Source: Rutstroemia sp. NJR-2017a BVV2 (Eukaryota > Ascomycota > Leotiomycetes > Helotiales > Rutstroemiaceae). From it: a stretch of DNA of 64,000 nucleotides. The stretch covers positions 1-64,000 of the forward strand of contig NJPS01000043.1 of the NCBI GenBank assembly GCA_002946415.1, in the 5' to 3' direction. How positions within the stretch are numbered: position 1 is the stretch's first letter; every line of letters begins with the position of its first letter. Both the position numbers and the translations under genes were made by a program. Below, in pieces: positions 2,815 to 39,205 of this stretch. Below the pieces are notes generated by a model that saw only the letters and a program-made list of their open reading frames with translations, was not told where the DNA came from and ran no database searches.

Positions 2815-3828
2815 CGCATATTGCAATGCTCTGTTTATACCGGAATGAGAATGGATGAATTGGTGGTTTAGTTTGTTGTTTACAGCGTCGGCGTATATCT
2901 GGAAGCTTTTCACATGGTGCATATTTCCTCGCGGGTCGGCGTTAGTTAATACCCATTAGCATTACAAGAGGTATAATTCCTAGATGTATAAATGTTTGAG
3001 CGGCATTTGTCGGATATAGGAAAGAGGTTGAGGTTATCAGTAGGTAGATAGAGAAACGGACGGTTCACATAGATTCCACGATAGCAGAGAGAACTTCGCA
3101 AAACATGAACTGCTCATGAACTCGGCCACCAAGTTGGGTTGATTTGACAGTACTTGGAAGAGCGTATATGAAAGATCAAGTACCAGGACTATTCGAGCTT
3201 TAGAGAAGGAATACTTCCGTTGTTAGAAGGACGGCAGCACGATCTAGAGCTCATCTACTCCGCCCGCCCCCCCTGTCCTCCCTATAGAACTGCCAGAAAC
3301 ATAACAAAAATCTCAGGTAACAATTTCAAATCACAGACGTTTTGTAAAACAGGAGTCGATGACTCCAAGGAGGTCTGTTATTTGTCCAACAGATAATCCT
3401 TGAATGTGACAGTGCGTTAAAGTTCTCTGGCAGGGAATTTGTAGCATCAAAGCTTGTTCGAGAAACAGACCCTAAGAGCTTGTGAATCAAAGCGTTACTC
3501 GTCCGACTTTGACCTCAAAAACCTCAACAGTCATAGAGTTGTAAAACCTACGATGTTACACTTTGTTTCATGTTTCGAAGTTCGTCACATGATGGTAACA
3601 AAAATGGAAACGCCACTGTGGGCAGCGAAACAGCTGAAATCAAGGTACCCGACCGTGCCGAAACGCTACTTAGCTTGATGAGAAATCAGCAAAAACGCCG
3701 CATTCCTTCTTTCCAACCACTCTTTTCCGCTTCAATATGATGCCAAGATTCTGAAGTAAGCTGTCAGAAGTTTTCCAGGAGACTCACGAATATATCGATG
3801 ACAGTTGGATATCGCCAACTTTGAATCC
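2815..3828. other. Intergenic region
   Basis: About 1 kb. It holds the 3' flank of the phosphatase-like gene and the 5' flank of atg22. Only short, unconvincing open frames; nothing recognised. Confidence 0.6.
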
Positions 3829-5736
3829 ATGGAAGATGGAGGTAGAGGGCTGCGGAGCCCCCGCTACCCAGCTGAGGATACGAGTCCAACAACGGAAAGA
3901 GAGCTGAGAGGGTTCTTTTGCTATGGACTTGCTGCTGAGGTGTTTGCAGTATGTGCAGTTGGTATGTAATAGCTCTAATACACTATGCGGAAAGATTAAG
4001 AACTCACAACGACATCAGGGTCTTTTTTACCGGTTACATTGGAGCAGCTAGCACGTGAGCAGGGAGTTCTTTTCACGGACAAGACAACTTCTTGTACGGC
4101 TAAGAATGTTACGCAGGCTGCGAATGCTACTGCCAATGCCTTGCTGAAGAGAGCAGGAGAGCCAGATACTCACCAGTGTATCGTAAATATATTCGGCGCG
4201 GAATTAACGACAGCAAGTTTTGCTATGTATACATTTTCCTTTGCTGTATTCATGCAGGCTTTGGCACTGGTATCTGTGAGCTCAGTTGCTGATCATGGTA
4301 TGTTCTTGATTTTTCCCTCGTGGTTTGCATACTGATAATCTCCAGGTAACTGGCGCAAGAAGCTCCTTGCAGGATTTGGCTTCACAGGCTCAGTGTCCGC
4401 CATGTTGTTTCTGCTAGTCGTTCCGCAGATATTCATTGTTGGATCACTGTTGACAGTAATATGTGTTGTGTGTCTCGGTTGCTCCTTCGTCATCCTCAAT
4501 TCATACTTGCCGTTGCTTGTTTTGAATCATCCAACAGTTGCGGGCGCTGGTACTCATTCCAATGGAGCTTCTTCTTCTATTGCGCTCGAACCGCTTTCTC
4601 CCAACAATGGACAAGGAGAATCTGGGGATGCATTCCGCAAACGTCCTTTTCGAAAGCTAGATGTAGACTCTAAAGCAGACTCAACAGATCTTCAACTGTC
4701 CACCAGAATTTCTGCCAAAGGTGTAGGGATTGGCTACATGGCCGCAGTCTCTGTGCAGGTCATTTGCATCATTATACTATACGTCATGAATAAAGTAAAT
4801 ATGCCATCGACGATTCCTCTACGGACAGTTCTATTCTTCGTCGGCTCATGGTGGCTCACTTTCACCATTCCATCGATTATGTGGTTACGCGACAGGCCTG
4901 GGCCACCACTTCCCACAGCGGTCTATGAAGGAGGTGCGAGCATCCGCACATGCTTATCATACACAGCTTTTGCTTGGAAGTCGTTGTGGAAGACTGTAAA
5001 AGTAGCTGTCAAGCTCCGCCAAGTGCTCCTCTTTCTAGTCGCCTGGTTCCTTCTCTCAGACGCAGTAGCCACCATTTCCGCTACTGCGATTCTGTTCGCC
5101 CGGACAGAGTTGCAGATGGGGACGGTTTCGGTGGCTATATTGTCTATTGTAGCTACCGCCTCAGGAATAGCAGGCGCTACGGTATGGCCTATCCTAGCGA
5201 AGAAGTTTTCGCTCAAGACGAATCAAGTCATCGTCTGTTGCCTGCTGCTTCTGGAGCTCGTTCCTCTCTATGGACTTCTCGGGTATCTTCCTTTCGTTCG
5301 AGCTTGGGGTGTGGGTGGTCTGCAGCGACCTTTCGAGATATATCCGTTGGGTATAGTGCATGGTGTAGTTATGGGAGGTCTGTCGTCATATTGTAGATCT
5401 TTCTACGGTCGGTTGATTCCACCCGGCAGCGAAGCTGCATTCTACGCACTGTTTGCAATTACCGACAAGGGAAGCTCAGCAGTGGGTCCGGCTATTGTGG
5501 GAAGGATTGTTGATGCTACAGGGCAGATTCGACCTGCTTTTGGGTTTCTTGCAGTGTTGATTGCTCTTCCTATTCCGATGATTTGGATGGTAGACGTTAA
5601 TAAGGGACAGGAGGATGCTATTCGAATGGCTGGGTTGATGAAAACGACCGATGACGGACATGAAGATTTCGAGTTATCTGATGACGAGTCGTCTGATGGC
5701 CATGAAGCTGAGGGACTGATGAGGAACCATGAATAG
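3829..5736 (+). CDS. atg22: Autophagy-related protein 22, vacuolar amino-acid effluxer
   Basis: Three exons: 3829-3961, 4019-4297 and 4346-5736, giving 600 residues. The introns (57 and 48 nt) are GTATGT...CAG. The N-terminal [11 protein letters not shown] then RELRGFF block, followed by [19 protein letters not shown], is diagnostic of fungal Atg22. Many hydrophobic segments follow (about 10-12 membrane spans, MFS-like fold), and the C-terminus is acidic ([14 protein letters not shown]). Yeast Atg22 exports leucine and other amino acids from the vacuole after autophagic breakdown; the same role is inferred here. Filamentous fungi often have more than one Atg22 paralog and I cannot tell which this is. 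The start ATG opens [14 protein letters not shown]. Confidence 0.93.
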
Positions 5737-6095
5737 AGTAAGTGACTATATATGTATGTATAGATCTGGGAGACCGATGTTCAGTATGATTTTAATGACA
5801 GACTAAAGTTGGAACTTTGACATAGTAAGTGATTGTGCAAGTCTTCCGCGCACATTAAACTCTTCTATGACCGATTTCTATATGAGGCTCCTGCAAATAG
5901 CTTAGCGGCATAATCCCGGGTTTCTATCTCGGGTACGTAAGCTGTCAGCAGGCTGCATACCCGCTATTTTCTGATTGGACAATTCGGTGTGGTCAGTGCA
6001 TATCACGACCGTAAGCATTCGGCTCCTTTAAATTTCTAGTCGATTCTCAAACGTCTGGTCAGCACATTGCATTTTTTTCTCAGATCATTTCCGCG
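5737..6095. other. Intergenic region
   Basis: About 360 bp between atg22 and the bZIP gene. It contains an imperfect CCCGGG/CTCGGG hairpin near 5916-5935. I checked it as a possible tRNA and it has no B box or acceptor stem. Confidence 0.45.
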
Positions 6096-7068
6096 ATGTT
6101 TTTGGTTTTACCCTTCGGCCCAGTGGCCCCTCCGAAAGAATCTACTCAGACTTTCAATGAAAATGTTGTTCCAGACGTAACATCGGTTGAGATTCAGCCA
6201 ATGCCGCAGAGCGTTGAGGCTAAAACACTCGCCGAAGACTGGACAGGAACTACCAGCGCCGCGGTGCGGAGAAAATTGCAGAACCGATTGAATCAGCGTG
6301 CTTCAAGTTTGTCTCCTATGGTCTAAATGCTTGATATCCGTCGTTATTGGTCAATGCTTATATATTGCTCTAGGGAGACGCAGACGACTAGCTCAGATTG
6401 CCGAACCATCCACACGCGAGACAGGGATCCGCATATTAGAGCCCTCAAAGAGACCCCAATTGACGGAAGATATATGTTCTGATAGCTTTAACCAAAAGCG
6501 GATGCTCTCCGCTCGCTCATTCAGCACCTATGTTCCCACGGATGGTATCTCCCAAGATTCATACCTACTTACATTGCTCCACTTCAACGTATATCGTGCT
6601 CTAACTTCCAACGTCCATCTGCTGAAGTTAGAGGTCTCAAATATGAATCTTGATGATCTTATCTCTCCATTCAATGACCTGAGTCTTAATTCAGACGATT
6701 CGCCTTCCGTCACTTTGGATCTGCCACCGTCACTCCAGCCAACCGAACTGCAGAAGACCATCACACATCATCCCGAGATCGATATTTTCCCGTTTCCACA
6801 ATGTAGAGATAATTTTCTCACAGCCATCTCGACTGGGCAAGAATGGGATGATATAGAATTCTGTCGTGATATCTTCTATGGAGTTGAAGGTGGAGACGGC
6901 AGGACAGGATTGATTGTGTGGGGCGAATCATGGGATCCAAGCAGTTGGGAAGTTGAAGAACAATTCGCCAAGAAATGGGCGTGGCTATTGAAAGGCTGCG
7001 ATGATCTATTTGCGACTACAAACAAATGGAGGGCGAAGAGGCAAGAGAGCCTCATTGCTTGGAAGTAG
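6096..7068 (+). CDS. bZIP transcription factor with DUF3425 domain
   Basis: Two exons, 6096-6306 and 6374-7068, giving 301 residues. The 67-nt intron (GTTTGT...CTCTAG) splits the basic region. After splicing it reads RRKLQNRLNQRASRRRRRLA, the form typical of DUF3425 bZIPs, where Tyr is more usual than Ser after NQRA. The C-terminal half carries the DUF3425 signature: HHPEIDIFPFPQCRDN, then WGESWDPSSWEVEEQF and KKWAWLLKGC. This implies a nuclear DNA-binding regulator. It lies about 1.2 kb from the RpiB/TIM-like pair and could regulate it, but only proximity suggests that. The start is the first in-frame ATG; a further upstream exon cannot be excluded. Confidence 0.85.
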
Positions 7069-8246
7069 ATACCGCCATACATATCTTGCCAGTGGTGCAC
7101 TGCGAACGTGCTCGTCTGGCAGGAACGGTCATGTACTGAATCATTGCAACGGGCGATTGACTAGCTGGTGCTGCTTTGTGCTTTCGAGATTAGATGGACG
7201 AAAAGATCATGCCGCCCATTTAAATCACCAGATTTCACATCACGCAACTTCTGTCTGACGACGAACATTTACTATTCAATAAAGCAAGGATCCCGATTCT
7301 GAATGTTACCCCATTCTTTACATGATAAGCTATTTCGAAGACCGCTCCTCGGAAGCTCTATCACCATAACTTTCACCTTATCGAGGCCACCTGGAAAAAC
7401 TGATGCAATACTGGCTGGAGTTTTCGCCCCACCACTGTACGCAGTCTTGTTCGAATTGAGATCAATATTTTGCTTGAGGAATTCAACGGCCTGGTTTAGG
7501 ATGCCTCTTGCGAGACAGACTTAGGTTACCAACGAATCCTTTGGGGCGAGGAAAAGACTCGGCACAGCTGGCATCACGTTCCAGCTGTGAAGAGCCGGAC
7601 GCGCTGACTTGGAACCACCTTTTTGGTTTGTCGAGTACGACTTCTTTCTCTACAACCAGTCAAGTGTAAGCGCCACTATGCGATTTTAAGACTCCAAGTT
7701 CAACCAACAGTGTCTACTTCTATCACCACATCCTCCGTGACTGGTCAGATCACAAGTGTCTAGAAAACTCAAAACTCTAAGGGGTGCTATGAAAGTCGGA
7801 CATTCTAAACTCTTGTTGCACGAAATGATGTACCCTCACAAGGAGCGTCGGACTCTCACGCCATGACTTGACTATGATTGTGTTTAACTCTTTATGGGGC
7901 GAACTAGGAGCCAGTTCAGAGACTTGCTTGTTCAAGCAGGCTTCGAAGTCGTCACGTTTTGTTTTACTAAAGAAAATCATACGAATGATATTTTTGAGAG
8001 GTTTTTGAGGGAGTAGTAGTATTCTTTGTGGGTTCTTTCGCTTCAGTGGGAGATATAGTTAGGGGTAATAAATTGGTATTTGCATTGAGAATAGTAACGG
8101 GGTAATCATATCAAAACAATTCATATGCTCAAAACAGCACCATTCTCTTCACGTAATTTCTCTTGAAATTCCCCACACTCAATTCGCCAAATCATAATCA
8201 TTAATCGCCTTAACCTTCGGCGCCGAGCTCGATTCCTACACCTCAG
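7069..8246. other. Intergenic region
   Basis: About 1.2 kb between the bZIP gene and the RpiB-like gene. Apart from the possible minus-strand fragment at 7272-7520, I recognise nothing. Confidence 0.5.
7272..7520 (-). pseudogene. Possible gene fragment, unassigned
   Basis: A minus-strand frame of about 82 codons, bounded by stops and without a usable ATG. Its composition looks protein-like (for example GGAKTPASIASVFPGGLDKV). No family was recognised. It may be a remnant of a decayed gene, an exon of an unmodelled gene, or chance. Confidence 0.2.
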
Positions 8247-19993: not shown

Positions 19994-19998
19994 GCCTT
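19994..19998. repeat. Target-site duplication, left copy (gcctt)
   Basis: The five bases gcctt lie immediately before the first TG of the element and recur at 24711-24715 just after the closing CA. A 5-bp duplication is the size expected for LTR retrotransposon integrase. Confidence 0.92.
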
Positions 19999-20179
19999 TG
20001 TCAGGAAATGCTTATGTAATACTGTAGTTGTCAGGAAATGCTTATGTAATACTGTAGTATTTATGGATCGTTCGGCCATCTGGCCACTTTCAGTAATATC
20101 ATCATTATTAATTACTACTGTCATTAAAATCATACACTAAACCGCTTCCATTCCAACTAATCAAGTTATAATCCTAACA
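19999..20179 (+). repeat. 5' LTR with an internal 30-bp tandem duplication
   Basis: 181 bp, beginning TGTCAGG and ending CCTAACA. The first 30 bases (19999-20028) are repeated exactly at 20029-20058, so this copy is 30 bp longer than the 151-bp 3' LTR. The target duplication abuts 19998, so the extra unit belongs to the element. Confidence 0.93.
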
Positions 20180-20193
20180 GGTTATGAGCCCGG
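20180..20193 (+). promoter_or_regulatory. Primer-binding site, half-tRNA type (initiator tRNA-Met)
   Basis: GGTTATGAGCCC follows the LTR directly. It is complementary to GGGCUCAUAACC, the anticodon stem-loop of fungal initiator tRNA-Met, not to a tRNA 3' end. Priming by a cleaved half-tRNA is known for Drosophila copia and yeast Ty5. The ATG inside this site (20184-20186) is also the first codon of gag. Confidence 0.8.
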
Positions 20194-23100
20194 CCGCAAA
20201 CCGGGGTAATAAGGAAGAAATGGCCTCATTCTCATTAACGAAACCCGATAAGGGCAATAGCGACAGTACCAACGTTATCTACAATAGTGACAACTACTTT
20301 GAGTTCGTTGAAGCATACACGTCGGCCCTAATAGGCAAAAGATGCCTGAGAATCGTCCTAGGCACAGAACCAGCTCTGCCTATCCCACCAAATCAGTCAA
20401 CAGTACAATGGAACCTCTATATGGACTGGCAAGAAAGACGGGCAAAAGCCATCGATATCATAAGCTCCAGGGTCAATTCAGTGCAAAGATCAAGGCTCAT
20501 GCTGTTCATACAAGCGGAAGATCTAGTAGGTATGTGGAACGAGCTCAAAAGAGGTAACCCTAGAAACAACCCTATCTTCGTCGATCAGATCCGAAGGCAG
20601 TTCGTCGACCTGCCCTTCGATCCTAAGACTATGAAGCTTCGCCAGTTCGTCGATAGCCTCATCTCACTCCAATCTCGAACAAAAGCTAGTACAAGGGGTA
20701 TTACGGATAAAGAGGTGGTTTCACAACTGTTCGCCAAAATCCCACACGACGCAGGCTGGCAGGCATCCAAAATGTTTGCTCTGAGCTCCAAGATGGATCT
20801 TGAAGCAGCTGTTGTAGTTCTACAAGCCAACGAGACCGTCAACCCTATGGAACATGCAAATGCAGCTCAAGAGGAGGTATATAAAGGAGGCCATAGAGGC
20901 TATAGAGGCAGAGGAAGAGGTGGACGTCGCAGCTCAAAAGGAGGAAAAGGCAAGCCGTACAACTGTAACGGACGTGGTAGGGCAAGTTCAGGTTCTACGG
21001 ACCGTAATGACGACCATCACGGCCGAAACCGCGATCGCAGCAGTGGCAGAGGAAAAGAGGAGAAGGAAGCTGGCTCAAATCAGTATTGGTGGTGTAAGAA
21101 AGAAGGATACTATCAAGCAGACTGCTACTCCTACTTAAGAGCTCGAGAGAAGAATGACAACAGACGTGATAGCTCATCAGAAGGTGCAAAAGTTGCTATA
21201 ACAGAGGAAGAATACCGCAGTTCAGGATACTTTATAGAGCATGCAAATACTATAACTACAAACCCAGAATGGATCCTAGACTCAGGCGTATCAAAGCACT
21301 TCTCAGGCACTCTAAACGATTTCCAACGATTAAAGAGATAGGCTGAACCTCATAAGGTACGACTAGCTGATGACTCCTACAGCTAAGCAGAAGAGATAGG
21401 CCAGGTCAAGCTCAATCATATTATACTAAATGATATCTGGTATATTCCGAGCTTCGGAAACACTCGATTACTCTCAGTAAAGCAGCTTATATCAAAAGAA
21501 GGATATAAAATCGTATTTGAGAAGCAGGAAGCAAAATTATAGCTTAATAAGGAATTGAGGTTTACGGCGATTTCTCAACATAGCATATATAATATATAGC
21601 CATTAGTGAGCTCAAACTTTGCTGAAGGCCGAGCACAGAAACCACCCGAAAATGGTGGTAATTTTGCCCTGTGGCACCGCCGTTTAGGGTATCCGAGCAT
21701 CAAAACCTTAAAAATAGTCGAAAAGAACACGATCGGCACCAGTATCAGTATGGACGTCGCAAAAGGACGAGAAGCATACGAAGTATACCTAGCAGGCAAA
21801 ATGAAAGAAAAGATAAATAAACAGATACAAAGCAGATCGGAATTGAAGCTGTATAGGCTATATATAGATATTTCTGGGAAGATCGCCACCTCCATCAACG
21901 GCTTTAATTACTTCCTTAAGGTCATCGACGATACAATACGTTTTACCTGGCTCAAACTGACTATCGGCAAGAGCTCAGCGGAGCTTGTACTAATACTAAT
22001 ATAACTGATTGAAGAAATCGAAAGAGAAGCTAACTTAAAGGTTATAGTAATAAGAGCTGATAATGGCAGAGGAGAATTTAGTATAGACTTCCAAAATCGG
22101 ATCAAATCTCAAGGTATAGGATTCGAACCGTCGCTACTATACAAACATACGATGAACGGAGTAATTGAGAGATCTATATAGGAGATCGTATATATATCAA
22201 GGAGTATACTGTTCGAAGCAGGACTTCTACAAAACTATTGGGAGTTTGTAGTACAGCATGCAGTATAGCTTAAGAATCGTATACCTATAATAGTACTGCC
22301 TTTTAACATATTAAAAACAACAAATCCCTACGAAGTATATATGGACTATTCCCTCAATTTGACAAAATTAAAAGTATTTGGATATAAGGTATTTGTTCTG
22401 AAGTATAGGGATAAACACCCAATCAAATTTGAACCAAAGATCATATCTGGAAGGTATATAATGATCAGTATAAAAGGATCGCAGATCTACAGATTATAGA
22501 ATATATTGATTGGCAAGCTAGAAGAGTACACTGATATTGATTTCAATGAATATAGCTACCCATTTCGCAGTGACAACAACAATAAGACCTAAGAGATTCA
22601 GAGGAATCCAAGAGCTTGCAAACGCTACAATGTTGCGAACGCTCCAGCACAAGTATTAGAGGTCAGAGGTTCAATAGAAGCAGAAAGGAAGGTCTTCAAC
22701 AACTCAGTCGTTGCACAAGCCAAGGCAAATACTGTAGTATATATACAGCATGAAGCTAAAGCGATACAAGGCCTTCCCTTCGCACCTCACGAGGCCATTG
22801 AACTGGAAGATGTACTCGCAGAGGACGCTCTCGGGTGGAAAGCTGCAATAATTGAAGAGCTAAAAGTGCTTAAGAATATAGGCACATTCAAAATTATAAC
22901 GGGCAAAGTCCCCAGCGGAAAGCATGCGATTACATCGAAATAGGTATGCCGAAAGAAGTTCAATAACGACGGACAGATCGTGAGAAGAAAAGCACAACTT
23001 GTTGTAAGAGGCTTTGAACAAACCTATGGATCAGATTATAATGAGACCTATGCAACTGTGCTGAAGTATGCTATATTGTGAGTGCTCGCAGCGAAAGCAG

Positions 23101-24353
23101 CAGCAGAGAACCTGGAAATAGATCATATTGATATCGATACTACATTCCTAATCCTGCAGATTCAAGAAGATCTCTACTTAGAGATTCCTCAATTCTTTGA
23201 AGAAGTGTTTCCTGAGATCAAGATAATGACGGATATATTTCTCTTAATTAATAAAGTGCTCTATGGACTGAAACAAGCTCCAAGAGAATAGCTTTTATTA
23301 GTTAAAAGCGTCTTCGATCGCCTTGGATTGATAGCAGCAATAGCTGATACAAACCTGTTTCTTAATAAGAAACTATATATTATATTATAAGTCGACGACA
23401 TGCTAATTGTAGGAATACGAAGGTATATCGACGAGCTCAAGAAGAGAATAAGAGAAGAGTGGAAATACAAAGATTTAGGACCTGTTGATACCTATATCGG
23501 CCTTCAATTCGAAAGGAATCGCAAAGAGCGATCGATTAAAATCCATCAAACAGTATATATACGAAGGCTCATTGAACGCTTTCGACTACAAAATGCGAAT
23601 CCAAGGATACTTCCACTGCTAGCAGGAACAGTTCTTAAAGACGATAACAACCTTCTCTCAATTGAACACCAGTATATTTACTAGTAGATTATTGGATCTC
23701 TTCTGTTCCTATCAAACAACTCAAGGCCAGATATTGTATATGCAACAGGACAGCTAGCACGATTTATACAGAAGCCAGGAATCTCTCATTACAGATATAC
23801 TAAGAACCTACTTCTTTTCTTAAAAGGCATAGCTAATCGTAGTATCCTTTACTCAAGCAGGCAACGACTGCGACCAACAGATTATAATACATATACGGAT
23901 ACGATATAGGGAACGGAGCAAAGTCGAGCCTCATTTCAAGGTATTGTATCGATAAAATATAGTGGAGCGATCAATTGGATGGCGCAAAGGCAAAAGTCGA
24001 TAGCGCAAAGCACTATGGAAGCAGAGATCATAGCAGCGAATGAAGCAGCGAAGGAGATAGCATGGATGAAGAAGCTGGCTACAGATTTACGAGAACACGA
24101 TCCAAACGAACCCTACATTCCGACCCTTTATTGCGACAATCAAAGTGCGAACAACTGGATGAAAGAGTCCAAATTCCATACGAAATCGAAGCATATTGAG
24201 ATCCGATACTACTATATAAGGAACGATATAGTAGATAAAAAGAGACTAGCAGTCTTGTTTATTCCTGGGAAGGATCAGACTGCTGATATTCTCACGAAAC
24301 AGCTACCCATTGAGCAGTTCAATAAACACTTGAAGGGCATGGGAATGGTTTAA
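20184..24353 (+). pseudogene. Copia gag-pol polyprotein, 16 nonsense codons
   Basis: One frame of 1,390 codons. Gag occupies about the first 300 codons and ends in an RG-rich tract and a zinc knuckle in which the first Cys and the His read Tyr (YWWCKKEGYYQADC). The protease motif reads DSGV where DSGA is expected. Integrase lacks both Cys of its HHCC site (EAYEVYLAGK) and one His (RRLGYPS). Reverse transcriptase retains KQAPRE and VDDM, and RNase H retains STMEAE. Internal stops start at 21339, 21384, 21540, 21597, 22002, 22179, 22266, 22497, 22590, 22941, 23079, 23289, 23388, 23682, 23685 and 23907: 11 TAG, 4 TAA, 1 TGA. Each can come from CAG, CAA, TGG or CGA by one transition. No indel disrupts the frame. 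Confidence 0.93.
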
Positions 24354-24559
24354 AACCATCGGAATACTCTTGTATCGCTCTATAGCTGAAAAGCATAGGT
24401 TGCTGAACTCCACAGGAGACGTAGGCATCATAGCTGAAGCCATTGCGAGAGTTAATAAGGTTCTAGTGTTGAGAATGGTTGATTCAGATCTGAGCGAAAT
24501 CCATTTGAGCGCATTTCTGGGAATAGCTTCATTTTATCCCTTATTCAGCTATGGAGGGC

Positions 24560-24710
24560 TGTCAGGAAATGCTTATGTAATACTGTAGTATTTATGGATC
24601 GTTCGGCCATCTGGCCACTTTCAGTAATATCATCATTATTAATTACTACTGTCATTAAAATCATACACTAAACCGCTTCCATTCCAACTAATCAAGTCAT
24701 AATCCTAACA
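24560..24710 (+). repeat. 3' LTR of the copia element
   Basis: 151 bp, identical to 20029-20179 except one position near the end (C here, T in the 5' copy, in a CpA/TpA context). It ends in CA and is followed by the gcctt target duplication at 24711-24715. Confidence 0.95.
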
Positions 24711-26473
24711 GCCTTGCAAGCTTCTTCTGCTGCAGCATATATGCCAGGCTACGAAATTCTAGTTCAACTGCAATATCCAGTGCTGTTTTGCCACTGGAAG
24801 TCGTGGCTTCAATGTCCATCCCTCGGTTTAGTAGGATATCCACCAGTTCTACACAACCAGATTGAGCCGCGCAATGTAAGATGGTCTCATGAGAGGTAGA
24901 CCGAAATTTAACCTGTGCCCCATTATCCAATAGAAACAGCGCAATATCGAGGTTGCCCTGCCTGGCTGCATAATGTAATGGCGTAAAAAACTCCCGATCA
25001 AGACAGTTGACAGACGTTAGACTGGAGTTTGCTTTTTCCAAAACCAGCTTCACTATCTGCATCTGCTCGGACATGACTGCAAGATGCATTAATGATCTGC
25101 CTTTCGCATCAGTTCCTGCGTTTACTACCCTCTCAATTAGGAATCCTGCTACTGCCATGCTCTTGTTTAGGACAGCCCAATGTAGTGCATCCACAATGTT
25201 GAAATATGCTAAGTTGAAATACGCTTGTTGTTTTAGCAGTAGTTCAATCAGTGACAAGTGCCCACCCTTGAGTGCCTCACTTAACTCCAGTTGTAGGGCC
25301 TGATCAATCCCAGCGAGGTCCACACAGTTGTCCAAAAGGAGCCGTAGAATCTCTAGCCGCCCTTCTTGAGCTGCCCAATGTAAAGCTGATCGTACATCAT
25401 CATGAGTGATAGCGATATTTAGGTTGCTGTCTAGCAAAAGCTGTACTATCTCCAGGTGCCCACACTCAACTGCCCAATACAATGCCGATCGGTTTCCCTC
25501 GTCAACAGCAATGACATCTGCACCATTTTCTTGCAAAAGCTGTACTATCTTAGGGTTCCCCCCTTGGACTGCCCAATATACAGCTGATCGCTTTTCTTTA
25601 TCAACAGTATTGATGTTTGCCCCTTTGGCTAGCAAGAGATGTACAATCTCCAGTTGCCCTCCCTCAGCCGCCCAATGTAATGCTGATCGTTCATCTGTAT
25701 CAAGGGCATTGACATCCGCCCCGTTGTCTAGAAACAGCTGCAATGCGACCTTCTGCCCGTATTTCGCTGCCAAATAAAACGCCATACTAAAATGAAAATA
25801 TGTAATGCTTTCAGGTTCGGCTCTATGTATAGGGACCGATGGTACACGCACCCCCTTCTTAAGCAGCTCCGAAATTTTCGCTATATCTCCCGTCTTGGCT
25901 GCATAGTCGAGATAAGGACCCCAGAAATATTCTGCTAAATCTCGTCTCCAAGCAATGACCTTCTGATGAAAATCATCCAGAACCTGAACATCGACAGTGA
26001 GAGTTTGGAATACAGTCCTCAAATCGTCATAAAACATGACAAGTGGACGTTGACGCTCAAATTCCACATCCCGAGGATATTCATGCATCTCATCTGCATA
26101 GTTCCTTTGTTAAATAATCTTCTCGTCTAAGGGTTTCGAGAACGTAAATGAACTCACCCTTGATTAAATATATCCCATCTTCTATTACCTTGTAGTTATG
26201 AACTTCTTCCAACAACATTCGAAGATTATCCCTGCACCGTTTTATCTCTAGCGGCAGGTGCTTTGGAAGCATTCTCCACTTGACAGGTTTGAGAATACCG
26301 CACTTGATTTGTACGATGATCAACTCATCGACTGCCTGAAGAATTCCCGTGACATTCGAAGTAGACGAATCCGAAACTTGGGAGCCTCTGGAGCTCTGAG
26401 ATCCTTGGGATCTTGCTGGAGAGCTACTGCGATGATTTTGCCTGGCCTTCCCATATTTCACATAAAACGGCAT
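24697..26473 (-). CDS. Ankyrin-repeat protein, 3' end interrupted by the copia element
   Basis: Two exons, 26473-26158 and 26093-24697, with a 64-nt intron (GTGAGT...TATGCAG), giving about 570 residues. The C-terminal 400 residues form about ten ankyrin repeats with the usual SALHWAAEGGQLEIVHLLL pattern. The N-terminal 150 residues contain a Ser-rich stretch and an unassigned helical region. Fungal proteins of this build act as protein-interaction scaffolds; no partner is evident. The reading frame enters the 3' LTR and ends there as LARLLGL-stop. Across the empty site the frame would stop one residue after LAR, so the insertion merely swaps the last residue for four others. The start is the ATG opening MPFYVKYGK; the frame stays open further upstream and an additional 5' exon is possible. 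Confidence 0.82.
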
Positions 26474-36751: not shown

Positions 36752-39205
36752 TCAAACTCTCCTCCTCATAGGACCAGTAGGCAAACCTCCAATCTTCGGA
36801 CTACCCGGCAACCCAACCCCAGCTCTCGGTCCACTGGGCAAACCACCTCTAATCGATGGTCTCGGCCTAACAGTATCCTGTCTCGCCGGCCGTACGACTT
36901 CCACTGTCTTGGGTGGTGGTGGAGGAGCCCCTGATTTCTGCGCCGCCATCCCCGCGAACGCCTGCCTAATCTTCTCCTCTGCTTTTCGCATCTCCTCCTC
37001 TTTCGTCAATGGGCGGTCGTCGTCTTCAAGCTCTGCTTGTTCCTGTTGCATCCTCATTTTTTCTTCTCTCTCCATTCTGTTAATCCTCTCCATTTCCATC
37101 TGCGCATCCACTCGCTGCTGCTCGATAATCCATTTCTGTTCCTCTCGTCTTCTTATATCTTCTATTCTCTTTTCTTCTTCATACTGCTCTCTTTCCCTTC
37201 GCTCCAAATCGGCTCTTCTTTCTGCGTCTTCAAGTCGCTCTTGTTCTTCCATTTGTGCTCGTAGTCTTTCTCTCTTGTCTCTGGCTTCGGTCTCTCTTCT
37301 TTCTTCGTCAAGACGATCTTGTTCTTCTCTCTGTGATCTCATCCATTCTGCTCTCTCACGAGCCTCCCTTTCCCTCGTCTCGTCACGGAGTCTTTCTTGT
37401 TCAACATACCTCTCCTCCTCTTTCCTTTGCAGTTCTTCATATAGAGCGTCTTGGCGGCGTCTCTCTTCTTCGTATTTTGCTTGTTCGGCCACTCGTTCCT
37501 CCTCTTCTAATCTCTCCTCCTCGGCCAATCTCTCCTCTCTCGCAAGTCTCTCTTCTTCGTACCGTATGTTAGCCTCGTATGCCAACCGCTCTTCCTCTTC
37601 CAACCTTTCCTCTTCGGCCAGCCTCCTCTCCTCCTCAAACATTTCCTCTTCTTCGTATTTCTTAATTGCTTCGGCTGCCAGCCTTTCTTGCTCCAGCTCG
37701 AAAGCCTTGATTTGAGCCGTAAGCCTCTCAGCCTCTTCTCTTGCTTCTCTCTCTTCCTGCTCCCGCTTTTCTCTCTTGGCCCGTGCTGCCATATCTCTTT
37801 TCTCTTGTTCCATTCGTCTCTCTTCGTTCTCGGCCTCTTTTATCCTTTCTTCCTCTTCGTAGAACAATCGCATCTCTTCTGCCTCCCTAGCAATCTTTTC
37901 GTCCTCTTCCTCCATTTTCCTCTGTAGCTCCAACATTCCACTGCGTTGGTTTTCTATTTCTTCTCTTTCCAAGCGTATTTGCTCGGCTCGCTTTTCATAC
38001 TCGAGAAGTTTTCGTTCCGATTCTGCCTCTTGGGCTTGTTCAACGACTTGCGCCAATTTGGGGGCCGTTGCGAGTTTGGCCAGGTCCCTGAATGACCGCT
38101 TCGGTCGAGGTTGTGGTGGTGGTGGAAGGAACTCGGTAAGCGGGGTCTGAAGTTTGGGATATGCCATATTTTTGTTGTCGACTATCGGGGACTCTGCTGC
38201 AGTTGGAGTGACCATAGGTCGAACGGGCTCTTTCAGTTTCAGAGGATTCACAACTACTGGGACATATCTCTTCTGGGTGAGAAATATCTCATCTGTCTCA
38301 CCCAGCCCAGCCATGATATCATCCAAGGCGGAGATAGATGTCTTTGGATTTCTCTGATTCACCAATTTCTCTGTGGCTGGCTTCTCTGTCGATTTCTTGT
38401 TCTCAGTTTGTTTTAAAGAAACTGAAGCAAAATCGCCCAACCCAGCCATAATATCATCCAATGCAGAGATCGAAGCGCTGGGTTGACCTCGAACTTTTGG
38501 TCGCTGCGGTCGTTTGGATTTGCCAAATGGTACAGATGTATGAGTTGATGTACGTGTGGTTGTAGGTGTAGCCGCATTCATATTTTGCGTTGTTGACTGC
38601 GCTGGAGCAGAATAGTCTCGAATTGTTTCTTCGAGTAATTTTTCGTTAAGAGTCGATGTTGATATTTCGATGCCCACCATCACTTCCTGGGTAGGCAAGC
38701 TGTCCCGCTTACTTTCTTGAATTACTATATCCGCCAGGGTAAAAACGATAGCTGCTTCGGATTTGACCTCCTCAACAACCTCCGTTCTCTCCTGTGGCTC
38801 AACAGCGATCTCTTTTACCTCCTCAACGGCGACGGTTTTCAATTCCTCGGCAATCGTCTCGTCAACCTTTGTCTCCTTCGCGGTACCGTAGCCGAACATC
38901 TTCGCCATCCTCGCTCCTCGACTATTCGACCTCAGCATTGGCTTGGTGGTTCCTACTGCCGGTACCCCAATTCCCAAACTTCCAACACTTCCTAACTTCG
39001 CGTCGAAGAGCTTCTTCCCACCATCACCGGGACTGGCCGCAGCTCCGTCGCCCTCGGTGGAAATAGGATCGACGCTTTTGACATCTCCATTCAAGCTGAG
39101 GGGGAGGACCGTTATGGGAGTCGCAGTTATATCGGTGTCAGTAGATGTCGTTTCAGTTGGCTGTTTTTTAACATATGAAGAAAAGTATGATCCCCAGGTA
39201 GACAT
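36752..39205 (-). CDS. Long E/R/K-rich helical protein with a duplicated LDDIMAGLG motif
   Basis: 817 residues from the ATG opening MSTWGSYFSSYVKKQ. Residues 1-370 are low-complexity and mostly disordered, and contain the segment SISALDDIMAGLG twice (about 246-257 and 291-302). Residues about 375-770 are an uninterrupted E/R/K-rich helix with repeated EEERL(A/E) units, a likely single alpha-helix or coiled coil. The C-terminus is Pro- and Gly-rich (SGAPPPPPKTVEVVRP, SIRGGLPSGPRAGVGLPG). Proteins of this type often bridge actin or membrane structures, but no named domain is present. The frame is open 27 codons upstream without an ATG. The apparent plus-strand frame opposite the coil is an antisense artefact of GAG-rich codons. 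Confidence 0.8.
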   Translation of the reverse strand: MSTWGSYFSSYVKKQPTETTSTDTDITATPITVLPLSLNGDVKSVDPISTEGDGAAASPGDGGKKLFDAKLGSVGSLGIGVPAVGTTKPMLRSNSRGARMAKMFGYGTAKETKVDETIAEELKTVAVEEVKEIAVEPQERTEVVEEVKSEAAIVFTLADIVIQESKRDSLPTQEVMVGIEISTSTLNEKLLEETIRDYSAPAQSTTQNMNAATPTTTRTSTHTSVPFGKSKRPQRPKVRGQPSASISALDDIMAGLGDFASVSLKQTENKKSTEKPATEKLVNQRNPKTSISALDDIMAGLGETDEIFLTQKRYVPVVVNPLKLKEPVRPMVTPTAAESPIVDNKNMAYPKLQTPLTEFLPPPPQPRPKRSFRDLAKLATAPKLAQVVEQAQEAESERKLLEYEKRAEQIRLEREEIENQRSGMLELQRKMEEEDEKIAREAEEMRLFYEEEERIKEAENEERRMEQEKRDMAARAKREKREQEEREAREEAERLTAQIKAFELEQERLAAEAIKKYEEEEMFEEERRLAEEERLEEEERLAYEANIRYEEERLAREERLAEEERLEEEERVAEQAKYEEERRRQDALYEELQRKEEERYVEQERLRDETREREARERAEWMRSQREEQDRLDEERRETEARDKRERLRAQMEEQERLEDAERRADLERREREQYEEEKRIEDIRRREEQKWIIEQQRVDAQMEMERINRMEREEKMRMQQEQAELEDDDRPLTKEEEMRKAEEKIRQAFAGMAAQKSGAPPPPPKTVEVVRPARQDTVRPRPSIRGGLPSGPRAGVGLPGSPKIGGLPTGPMRRRV

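Follow-up and report, generated by a model that had tools for sequence, protein, structure and literature searches.

Repeat-induced point mutation as the very probable cause of disablement of a Ty1/copia element in Rutstroemia sp. NJR-2017a BVV2

The window analysed here (64,000 nucleotides, positions 1 to 64,000 of contig NJPS01000043.1 of the fungus Rutstroemia sp. NJR-2017a BVV2) holds a complete Ty1/copia retrotransposon at 19999-24710, and the interval 20184-24353 is its coding part. The DNA of this element and of its relatives indicates that the changes disabling it were very probably caused by repeat-induced point mutation (RIP). This process replaces C with T in repeated DNA of the parental nuclei, between fertilisation and karyogamy (the portion of PMC6709928 drawn on here). 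A preliminary description of the DNA had proposed RIP, and the proposal was supported mainly by sister copies, pairs of long terminal repeats (LTRs) and a RID-like gene outside the window.

The genome was searched with the gag and reverse transcriptase (RT) sequences, and a clade of six LTR-bounded elements, E1-E6, was found. Their 5-bp target duplications were read by eye and their stops counted by comparing frames, those of E3 and E4 having no assigned start codon:

E1, the copy in the window: target duplication GCCTT, 16 internal stops
E2, contig C68: TGGCT, 40 internal stops
E3, contig C38: ATACT, 16 internal stops
E4, contig C55: ACATT, 27 internal stops
E5, contig C28: ATCTT, 1.67 kb, open gag joined to an RNase H tail
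E6, contig C23: ACTGC, 2.07 kb, gag with stops

The check proposed in the preliminary description, an alignment of sister copies with transitions scored by dinucleotide, was performed on E3 and E4, which are separate insertions, each with flanks and a target duplication of its own. Over 4769 aligned bp they differ at 403 positions, all 403 being transitions, with 0 transversions and 0 indels. Both strands were affected (C/T 224, A/G 179; CpA/TpA 147, TpG/TpA 84), and the differing sites were concentrated at CpA (231/590, compared with 54/240 at CpG, 29/307 at CpC and 41/734 at CpT; CpA versus the rest p ~4e-48), in counts that omit the 48 of the 403 differences whose neighbour differs too. The LTR pairs of the six elements gave the same picture, with 20 transitions, 0 transversions and one 3-bp indel (in E5), the changes falling at 18 of 123 CpA sites and at 2 of 180 other C sites (p = 3e-6). 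The marks by which RIP is recognised, namely C-to-T transitions only, on both strands and with a preference for CpA, were found in E3/E4 and in the LTR pairs. These tests concern relatives and no sister of E1, whose own changes are not polarised base by base. The pattern recurs in other copia stretches, for example L019 and L021, which differ by 497 transitions and 0 transversions, and the stops in the 32 RT stretches of the genome comprise 91 TAG, 79 TAA and 2 TGA, five stretches being stop-free. In E3/E4 (L032, L033), the LTRs and untranslated regions (UTRs) were hit about half as often per CpA-type site as the coding part (15/67 versus 216/523, p = 0.003).

In E1, a recount agreed with the preliminary description that one frame without an indel carries 16 internal stops (11 TAG, 4 TAA and 1 TGA) before its terminal TAA. 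As frames 2 and 3 of the same 4170 bp contain 98 and 96 stops, a single frame has been kept and no indel needs to be assumed. The parts of the element are listed below, all on the plus strand except the target duplications; the TAY share is TAY/(TAY+CAY), where Y is a pyrimidine.

19994..19998: first copy of the target-site duplication (GCCTT), the same 5 bp standing at 24711-24715
19999..20179, +: 5' LTR, its first 30 bp tandemly duplicated (19999-20028 = 20029-20058)
20180..20191, +: primer binding site GGTTATGAGCCC, which pairs with the tRNA-Met anticodon arm and overlaps the gag ATG
20184..21338, +: stop-free frame of 385 amino acids, comprising gag with its zinc knuckle and the DSG motif of the protease
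21084..21125, +: gag zinc knuckle, Cys-to-Tyr at 21084 and His-to-Tyr at 21108
21339..24350, +: RIP patch (TAY share 0.73-0.81), with RVT_2 above cut-off in two pieces
21339, 21540, 21597, 22179, 22266, 22497, 22941, 23289, 23682, 23685, 23907, +: TAG stops
21384, 22002, 22590, 23388, +: TAA stops
23079, +: TGA stop
21675..21788, +: HHCC-type zinc finger of the integrase, one His and both Cys positions being Tyr
24354..24559, +: 3' UTR with a polypurine tract at 24550-24559 (by eye) and little RIP signal
24560..24710, +: 3' LTR, 151 bp, TG...CA
24711..24715: second copy of the target-site duplication (GCCTT)

All 16 stops lie at or beyond 21339, so that the first 385 codons (gag and the start of the protease) are stop-free. 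Before 21339 there are 0 TAR (R, purine) and 23 Gln or Trp codons, and after it 15 TAR and 49 Gln or Trp codons (Fisher p = 0.009). The claim that each stop is one transition away from CAG, CAA, TGG or CGA is true but uninformative, since it holds for any stop codon. At 10 of the 16 stop positions, Gln or Trp is present in at least one of the relatives E2, E3 and E4. Position 23907 is Trp in 15 of the 26 intact protein relatives reaching the site; the remaining 11 have a different residue there, which may be due to an alignment shift. The TGA at 23079 faces Arg (AGA) in two relatives, which is compatible with a CGA origin, and the TAA at 23388, facing TGG in E2 and TAT in E3/E4, may need more than one step. 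For 21597, 22179, 22497 and 22590, no ancestral sense codon could be assigned from the relatives compared.

The residue losses named in the preliminary description were largely borne out. In the gag knuckle, Tyr stands in place of Cys at residue 301 and of His at residue 309, and the intact proteins P0001 and P0002 as well as E5 retain the knuckle. In the integrase finger, two Cys positions and one His position are Tyr, as judged by the HHCC motif. The change of the protease Ala to Val is the weaker case: Val is present, but a metagenomic relative (P0003) likewise has Val. Tyr occupies all eight zinc-binding positions of the knuckle and finger in E4, seven of them in both E2 and E3 and five in E1, as counted by eye with the same assumed finger positions. 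The derivative E5 (L034 3585-5252) is a gag-only copia element with an open gag, a canonical zinc knuckle and a perfect target duplication.

The target of mutation in the clade extends to a third base. In the coding part of E3/E4, CpApY differs at 99/133 sites and CpApR at 106/367 (CAC 25/33, CAT 74/100, CAA 53/210, CAG 53/157). On the 5' side, T before CpA is avoided (TCA 0.20, CCA 0.39, ACA 0.46, GCA 0.54). Selection against stops as the source of the low CAR rates was rejected, since the rates are just as low in phases where no stop can arise: CpApY reaches 0.67-0.79 and CpApR 0.16-0.33 in each of the six codon-phase and strand classes (p 2e-8 to 0.04). The preference was also seen in the noncoding part of E3/E4 (12/31 versus 2/33), in the LTR pairs (15/69 versus 1/41) and in L019/L021 (CAY 24/30 versus CAR 81/151). 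For a wider comparison, 19 RT loci from the 32 matches were set against one another. A length of 1 kb and an identity of 78% were reached or exceeded by 14 pairs, which are non-independent and include E3/E4 (here L016/L018). CAY exceeded CAR at p < 0.05 in nine of the 14 pairs, and the preference is shared by the majority of the RIP-marked pairs from other copia families. The contrast was absent in L012/L015 and L012/L013, which have many transversions, and not significant in L028/L029 (p = 0.08) and L029/L030 (one CAY site); L012 and L022 are the identical sequence at the same place. The pair L013/L015 is also transversion-rich and still shows CAY above CAR (p = 0.02), which counts against a simple reading, and among the pairs with the heaviest mutation, CpT was raised as well (0.20-0.43).

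The codon pairs of E3/E4 show what this preference may do to the proteins. His-to-Tyr changes were seen at 19/24 codons, Met-to-Ile at 8/12, Cys-to-Tyr at 6/13 and Gln or Trp to stop at 23/79. A His codon (CAY) is itself a CpApY target, and Cys codons (TGY) offer the favoured 5' base on the opposite strand, the count for Cys being small. The CpApY preference would convert His codons to Tyr faster than Gln and Trp codons to stops, and zinc-binding residues could thus be lost while the frame remains open, with the same caution for the few Cys codons. The gag of E1, which has lost its knuckle and has zero stops, fits such a preference. In the RIP literature examined, as far as the portions consulted extend, neither a CpApY preference nor the onward transposition of RIP-dead copies is stated, the three-base context not itself having been a search term. 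The part of Wang 2020 (PMC7296669) consulted names a tri-nucleotide datasheet, the contents of which were not used here. The novelty of the three-base context is not established.

The TAY share was used for locating the signature within E1. The TAY and TAR shares of the parts of E1 and of the sequences compared were as follows:

E1 gag: 0.60 and 0.42
intact E5 gag: 0.57 and 0.37
E1 protease-integrase: 0.81 and 0.50
E1 RT-RNase H: 0.73 and 0.49
E1 3' UTR: 0.54 and 0.50
E1 LTR: 0.59 and 0.70
host flanks: 0.44-0.49 and 0.35-0.37
intact L036: 0.64 and 0.58
intact L037: 0.42 and 0.38

The E1 TAY share differs between gag and pol (p = 1e-4) and between pol and LTR plus UTR (p = 0.0014). Among 300-base windows, which leave the last 300 bases of the frame outside, it is raised from the one starting at 21066, with lower values in the pol windows at 22554 and 22854 (0.65 and 0.61). 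The RIP signature of E1 sits in pol, and not clearly in gag, the LTRs or the 3' UTR.

A search for C5-methyltransferases returned five matches at three loci. The RID-like gene on contig C47 has a PF00145 domain with SPPCQ and EQT; the EQT triad is given for N. crassa RID, Ascobolus Masc1 and many Masc1/RID enzymes (PMC6709928, same portion). The DIM-2-like gene on contig C79 has a BAH match under the cut-off, and a DIM-2-like protein piece of 1225 amino acids from this genome shows 100% identity to one of Rutstroemia sp. NJR-2017a BVV2. The RID-like and DIM-2-like functions are predictions from sequence, and it may be the gene on C47 that drives RIP here. The third locus (L046 1459-2964 and 465-1370, contig C58) has BAH matches and the usual ENV triad.

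Several observations weigh against RIP as the cause in E1. The indices that the preliminary description had suggested computing for 20184-24353 were negative (TpA/ApT 0.95, substrate index 1.20, composite -0.25), and E1 reaches none of the three cut-offs (product >1.1, substrate <0.75, composite >=0) given in the excerpt of PMC8959702 used. The closest genomic match to E1 has 70% identity over 3.2 kb, and there is no close duplicate in the assembly. When the E1 LTR was searched in the genome, it was found only in E1, and a RIP partner was not found. The pol baseline for the TAY share comes from other lineages only (L036 and L037) and from no intact pol of the clade. CpA-type changes in gag number 11 in E1 and 4 in P0001, which is a trend only, and against P0003 the order is reversed (3 against 6). 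The stop types in E1 alone, 15 TAR to 1 TGA (p = 0.04), are weak evidence for RIP, and the RID-like match spans one in-frame TAA (an intron or a break). For comparison, the RIP target is a duplication >400 bp with >80% identity (PMC5004834, in the part seen); E3 and E4, identical at 4366 of 4769 positions, are within that range, whereas the E1 partner has only 70% today. The classical indices were rejected as a detector, as the intact, stop-free L036 scores 1.61, 1.25 and +0.36 while E1 is negative. L036 itself (2975-7147, contig C5) is an intact copia frame of 1391 codons with LTRs about 99% identical.

The structure of E1 agrees with that of a Ty1/copia element, as direct repeats with TG...CA ends and a 5-bp target duplication (GCCTT) were found. 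Over 151 bp, the two LTRs (20029-20179 and 24560-24710) show a single mismatch, 20167 T against 24698 C, which is a TpA/CpA site, and the tandem duplication of 30 bp at the LTR start (19999-20058) is present in the 5' LTR only. The complement of the primer site, the 13-mer GGGCTCATAACCC, has two occurrences in the genome (43.4 Mb), both within tRNA-Met(CAT) genes; with a 21-base tRNA pattern there was no match. The copia order gag-protease-integrase-RT-RNase H was found in one frame. In Pfam, the gag region gave a weak Retrotran_gag_2 match under the cut-off, a gag_pre-integrs piece (also under the cut-off) precedes the two RVT_2 pieces above it, and the integrase core and RNase H pieces were without a match. 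The closest gag among three matches is from Clarireedia jacksonii (77% identity over 83% of the query, 249/308 aligned residues), and one of the 75 matches of the last frame piece carries the name Copia protein. The transversions between E1 and E2 number 159, 111 and 292 at codon positions 1, 2 and 3 (1367 each). This skew to the third position indicates that both lineages were protein-coding during at least part of their divergence, and the stops would have arisen late.

The near-identity of the E1 LTRs suggests one of two histories: mutation of pol ahead of the last jump, or RIP that spared the LTRs. The second possibility, RIP after insertion confined to the part that had kept its similarity to other copies (pol), with the diverged gag and LTRs spared, has in our view close to an even chance. 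It is consistent with the E1-E2 DNA similarity, which covers pol only and begins at 21187, near the rise of the TAY share, and with the single copy found in the LTR search. Against this, the 3' UTR is similar in E2 (157/204 aligned positions) and yet its TAY share is not raised, and the E2 gag holds 10 stops despite low DNA similarity to the E1 gag. The transversion rate correlates weakly with the E1 TAY share over 13 windows (rho -0.33, p = 0.27), and the idea that E1/E2 similarity tracks RIP along the frame was dropped as not significant. The other possibility is that pol had already been mutated by RIP when the element last jumped, its stop-bearing RNA being copied and inserted using the proteins of another element; this we regard as plausible, at appreciably less than an even chance. 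It would account for the difference between one of 21 CpA-type sites in the E1 LTRs and 15 stops among 64 Gln, Trp and TAR codons of pol: the pol rate predicts 7.5 LTR differences where one is seen (P(<=1) = 0.001, or 0.008 at the whole-frame rate), but halving the LTR rate raises P to 0.05-0.14. The case for earlier RIP is stronger in E2 (2/26 LTR sites versus 39 TAR codons in the frame; P = 1e-5, rising to 0.004 at half the LTR rate) than in E1. In E3 and E4, the LTR counts fit their own stop rates (P 0.10-0.19, equal rates), and their LTRs and UTRs are also less hit than the coding part, so the gap may be partly mechanical. Ten internal stops are common to E3 and E4 (Fisher p = 0.0035), where the unshared stops predict about 2 within context classes. 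When matched for context against E5, 36 shared changes were observed and 27.5 expected (P = 0.0003), an excess inflated by divergence from E5; sharing between E1 and E2 was not significant (p = 0.09). Shared stops were therefore not accepted as proof of an old stop-bearing lineage. That E5, a gag-only LTR-bounded derivative, did insert speaks for such copying in trans. No helper was found within the clade: of the five stop-free RT matches, four lie in L036-L038, distant from E1, and the fifth is partial, on C47, and not characterised.

Explanations other than RIP fared worse. Ordinary neutral decay of an old copy would suit a single divergent copy with many defects, but decay would leave indels too, as the preliminary description had argued, and the argument holds with 0 indels in the 4170-bp frame. 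The LTRs differing at 1/151 bp, the three-base context and the 403 transitions without a transversion between sister copies make decay very improbable. An APOBEC-like deamination of the cDNA during reverse transcription would explain transition-only changes and is equally improbable, given that both strands were changed (C/T 224 and A/G 179; CpA/TpA 147 and TpG/TpA 84) and that the stops in the window face both Trp and Gln in relatives. The same mixture of Trp and Gln, together with the lost zinc-binding positions and the sense codons of intact relatives where compared, makes it scarcely credible that the element reads its stops as amino acids, although the frame is kept and the E1/E2 transversions by codon position (159, 111, 292) imply past coding. 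RIP remains the preferred cause.

The insertion lies right where a minus-strand frame (24700-26109) terminates, one that appears ankyrin-like by eye. With the flanks joined, this frame has 467 codons and ends no more than about two codons from the junction; it now has 470 and ends inside the LTR. Elsewhere in the window, the interval 37001-38000 has a very strong strand asymmetry (GC skew -0.447, AT skew -0.587) with a pyrimidine-rich strand.

Some consequences follow for the detection of RIP. With the usual two-base indices, an element mutated by RIP can go unnoticed and an intact one can obtain the higher score. The TAY share put the small number of elements compared here into the order expected and is of help in locating RIP inside an element, with more controls needed. 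In RIP-active fungi, LTR divergence and stop counts can disagree. Should the local RID or DIM-2 enzymes be the source of the three-base preference, a comparison of species could tie enzyme sequence to target choice. A broader picture, which we offer as doubtful, is that RIP reads CpApY here and tends to destroy zinc-binding residues before stops appear, and that half-dead copies (LTRs and primer site intact, gag open in two of the six) are copied in trans, so that RIP would create a mobile population of parasites instead of ending transposition.

RIP is a known process, and the present case is an unusually clean read-out of it owing to the transition-only sister copies. Like RIP of the Neurospora crassa type (Pezizomycotina), it is transition-only, affects both strands of repeated DNA and takes CpA first, and RID-like and DIM-2-like genes are present. 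It may be set apart by the marked third-base preference (CpApY 99/133 versus CpApR 106/367 in E3/E4) and the avoidance of TCA. The copia element of Drosophila is primed by an internal fragment of tRNA-Met. The primer site of E1 likewise pairs with the anticodon arm of tRNA-Met, and E1 differs in its short LTRs of 151 bp and in the gag start codon lying inside the primer site. Copia-LTR_SS of Sclerotinia sclerotiorum, as presented in the part of PMC5004834 consulted, is also a Copia element with preserved LTRs and with RIP reported on the basis of alignments and indices; that study used 157 sequences and index tests on an element with an LTR of 269 bp, whereas sister pairs, the three-base context and an LTR of 151 bp are the basis here. 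Finally, the TpCpG-biased RIP of Ty1/copia elements in Microbotryum violaceum (PMC2621366, in excerpt) is likewise a three-base bias in a copia family, acting on the 5' side at CpG, whereas the bias described here acts mainly on the 3' side at CpA.

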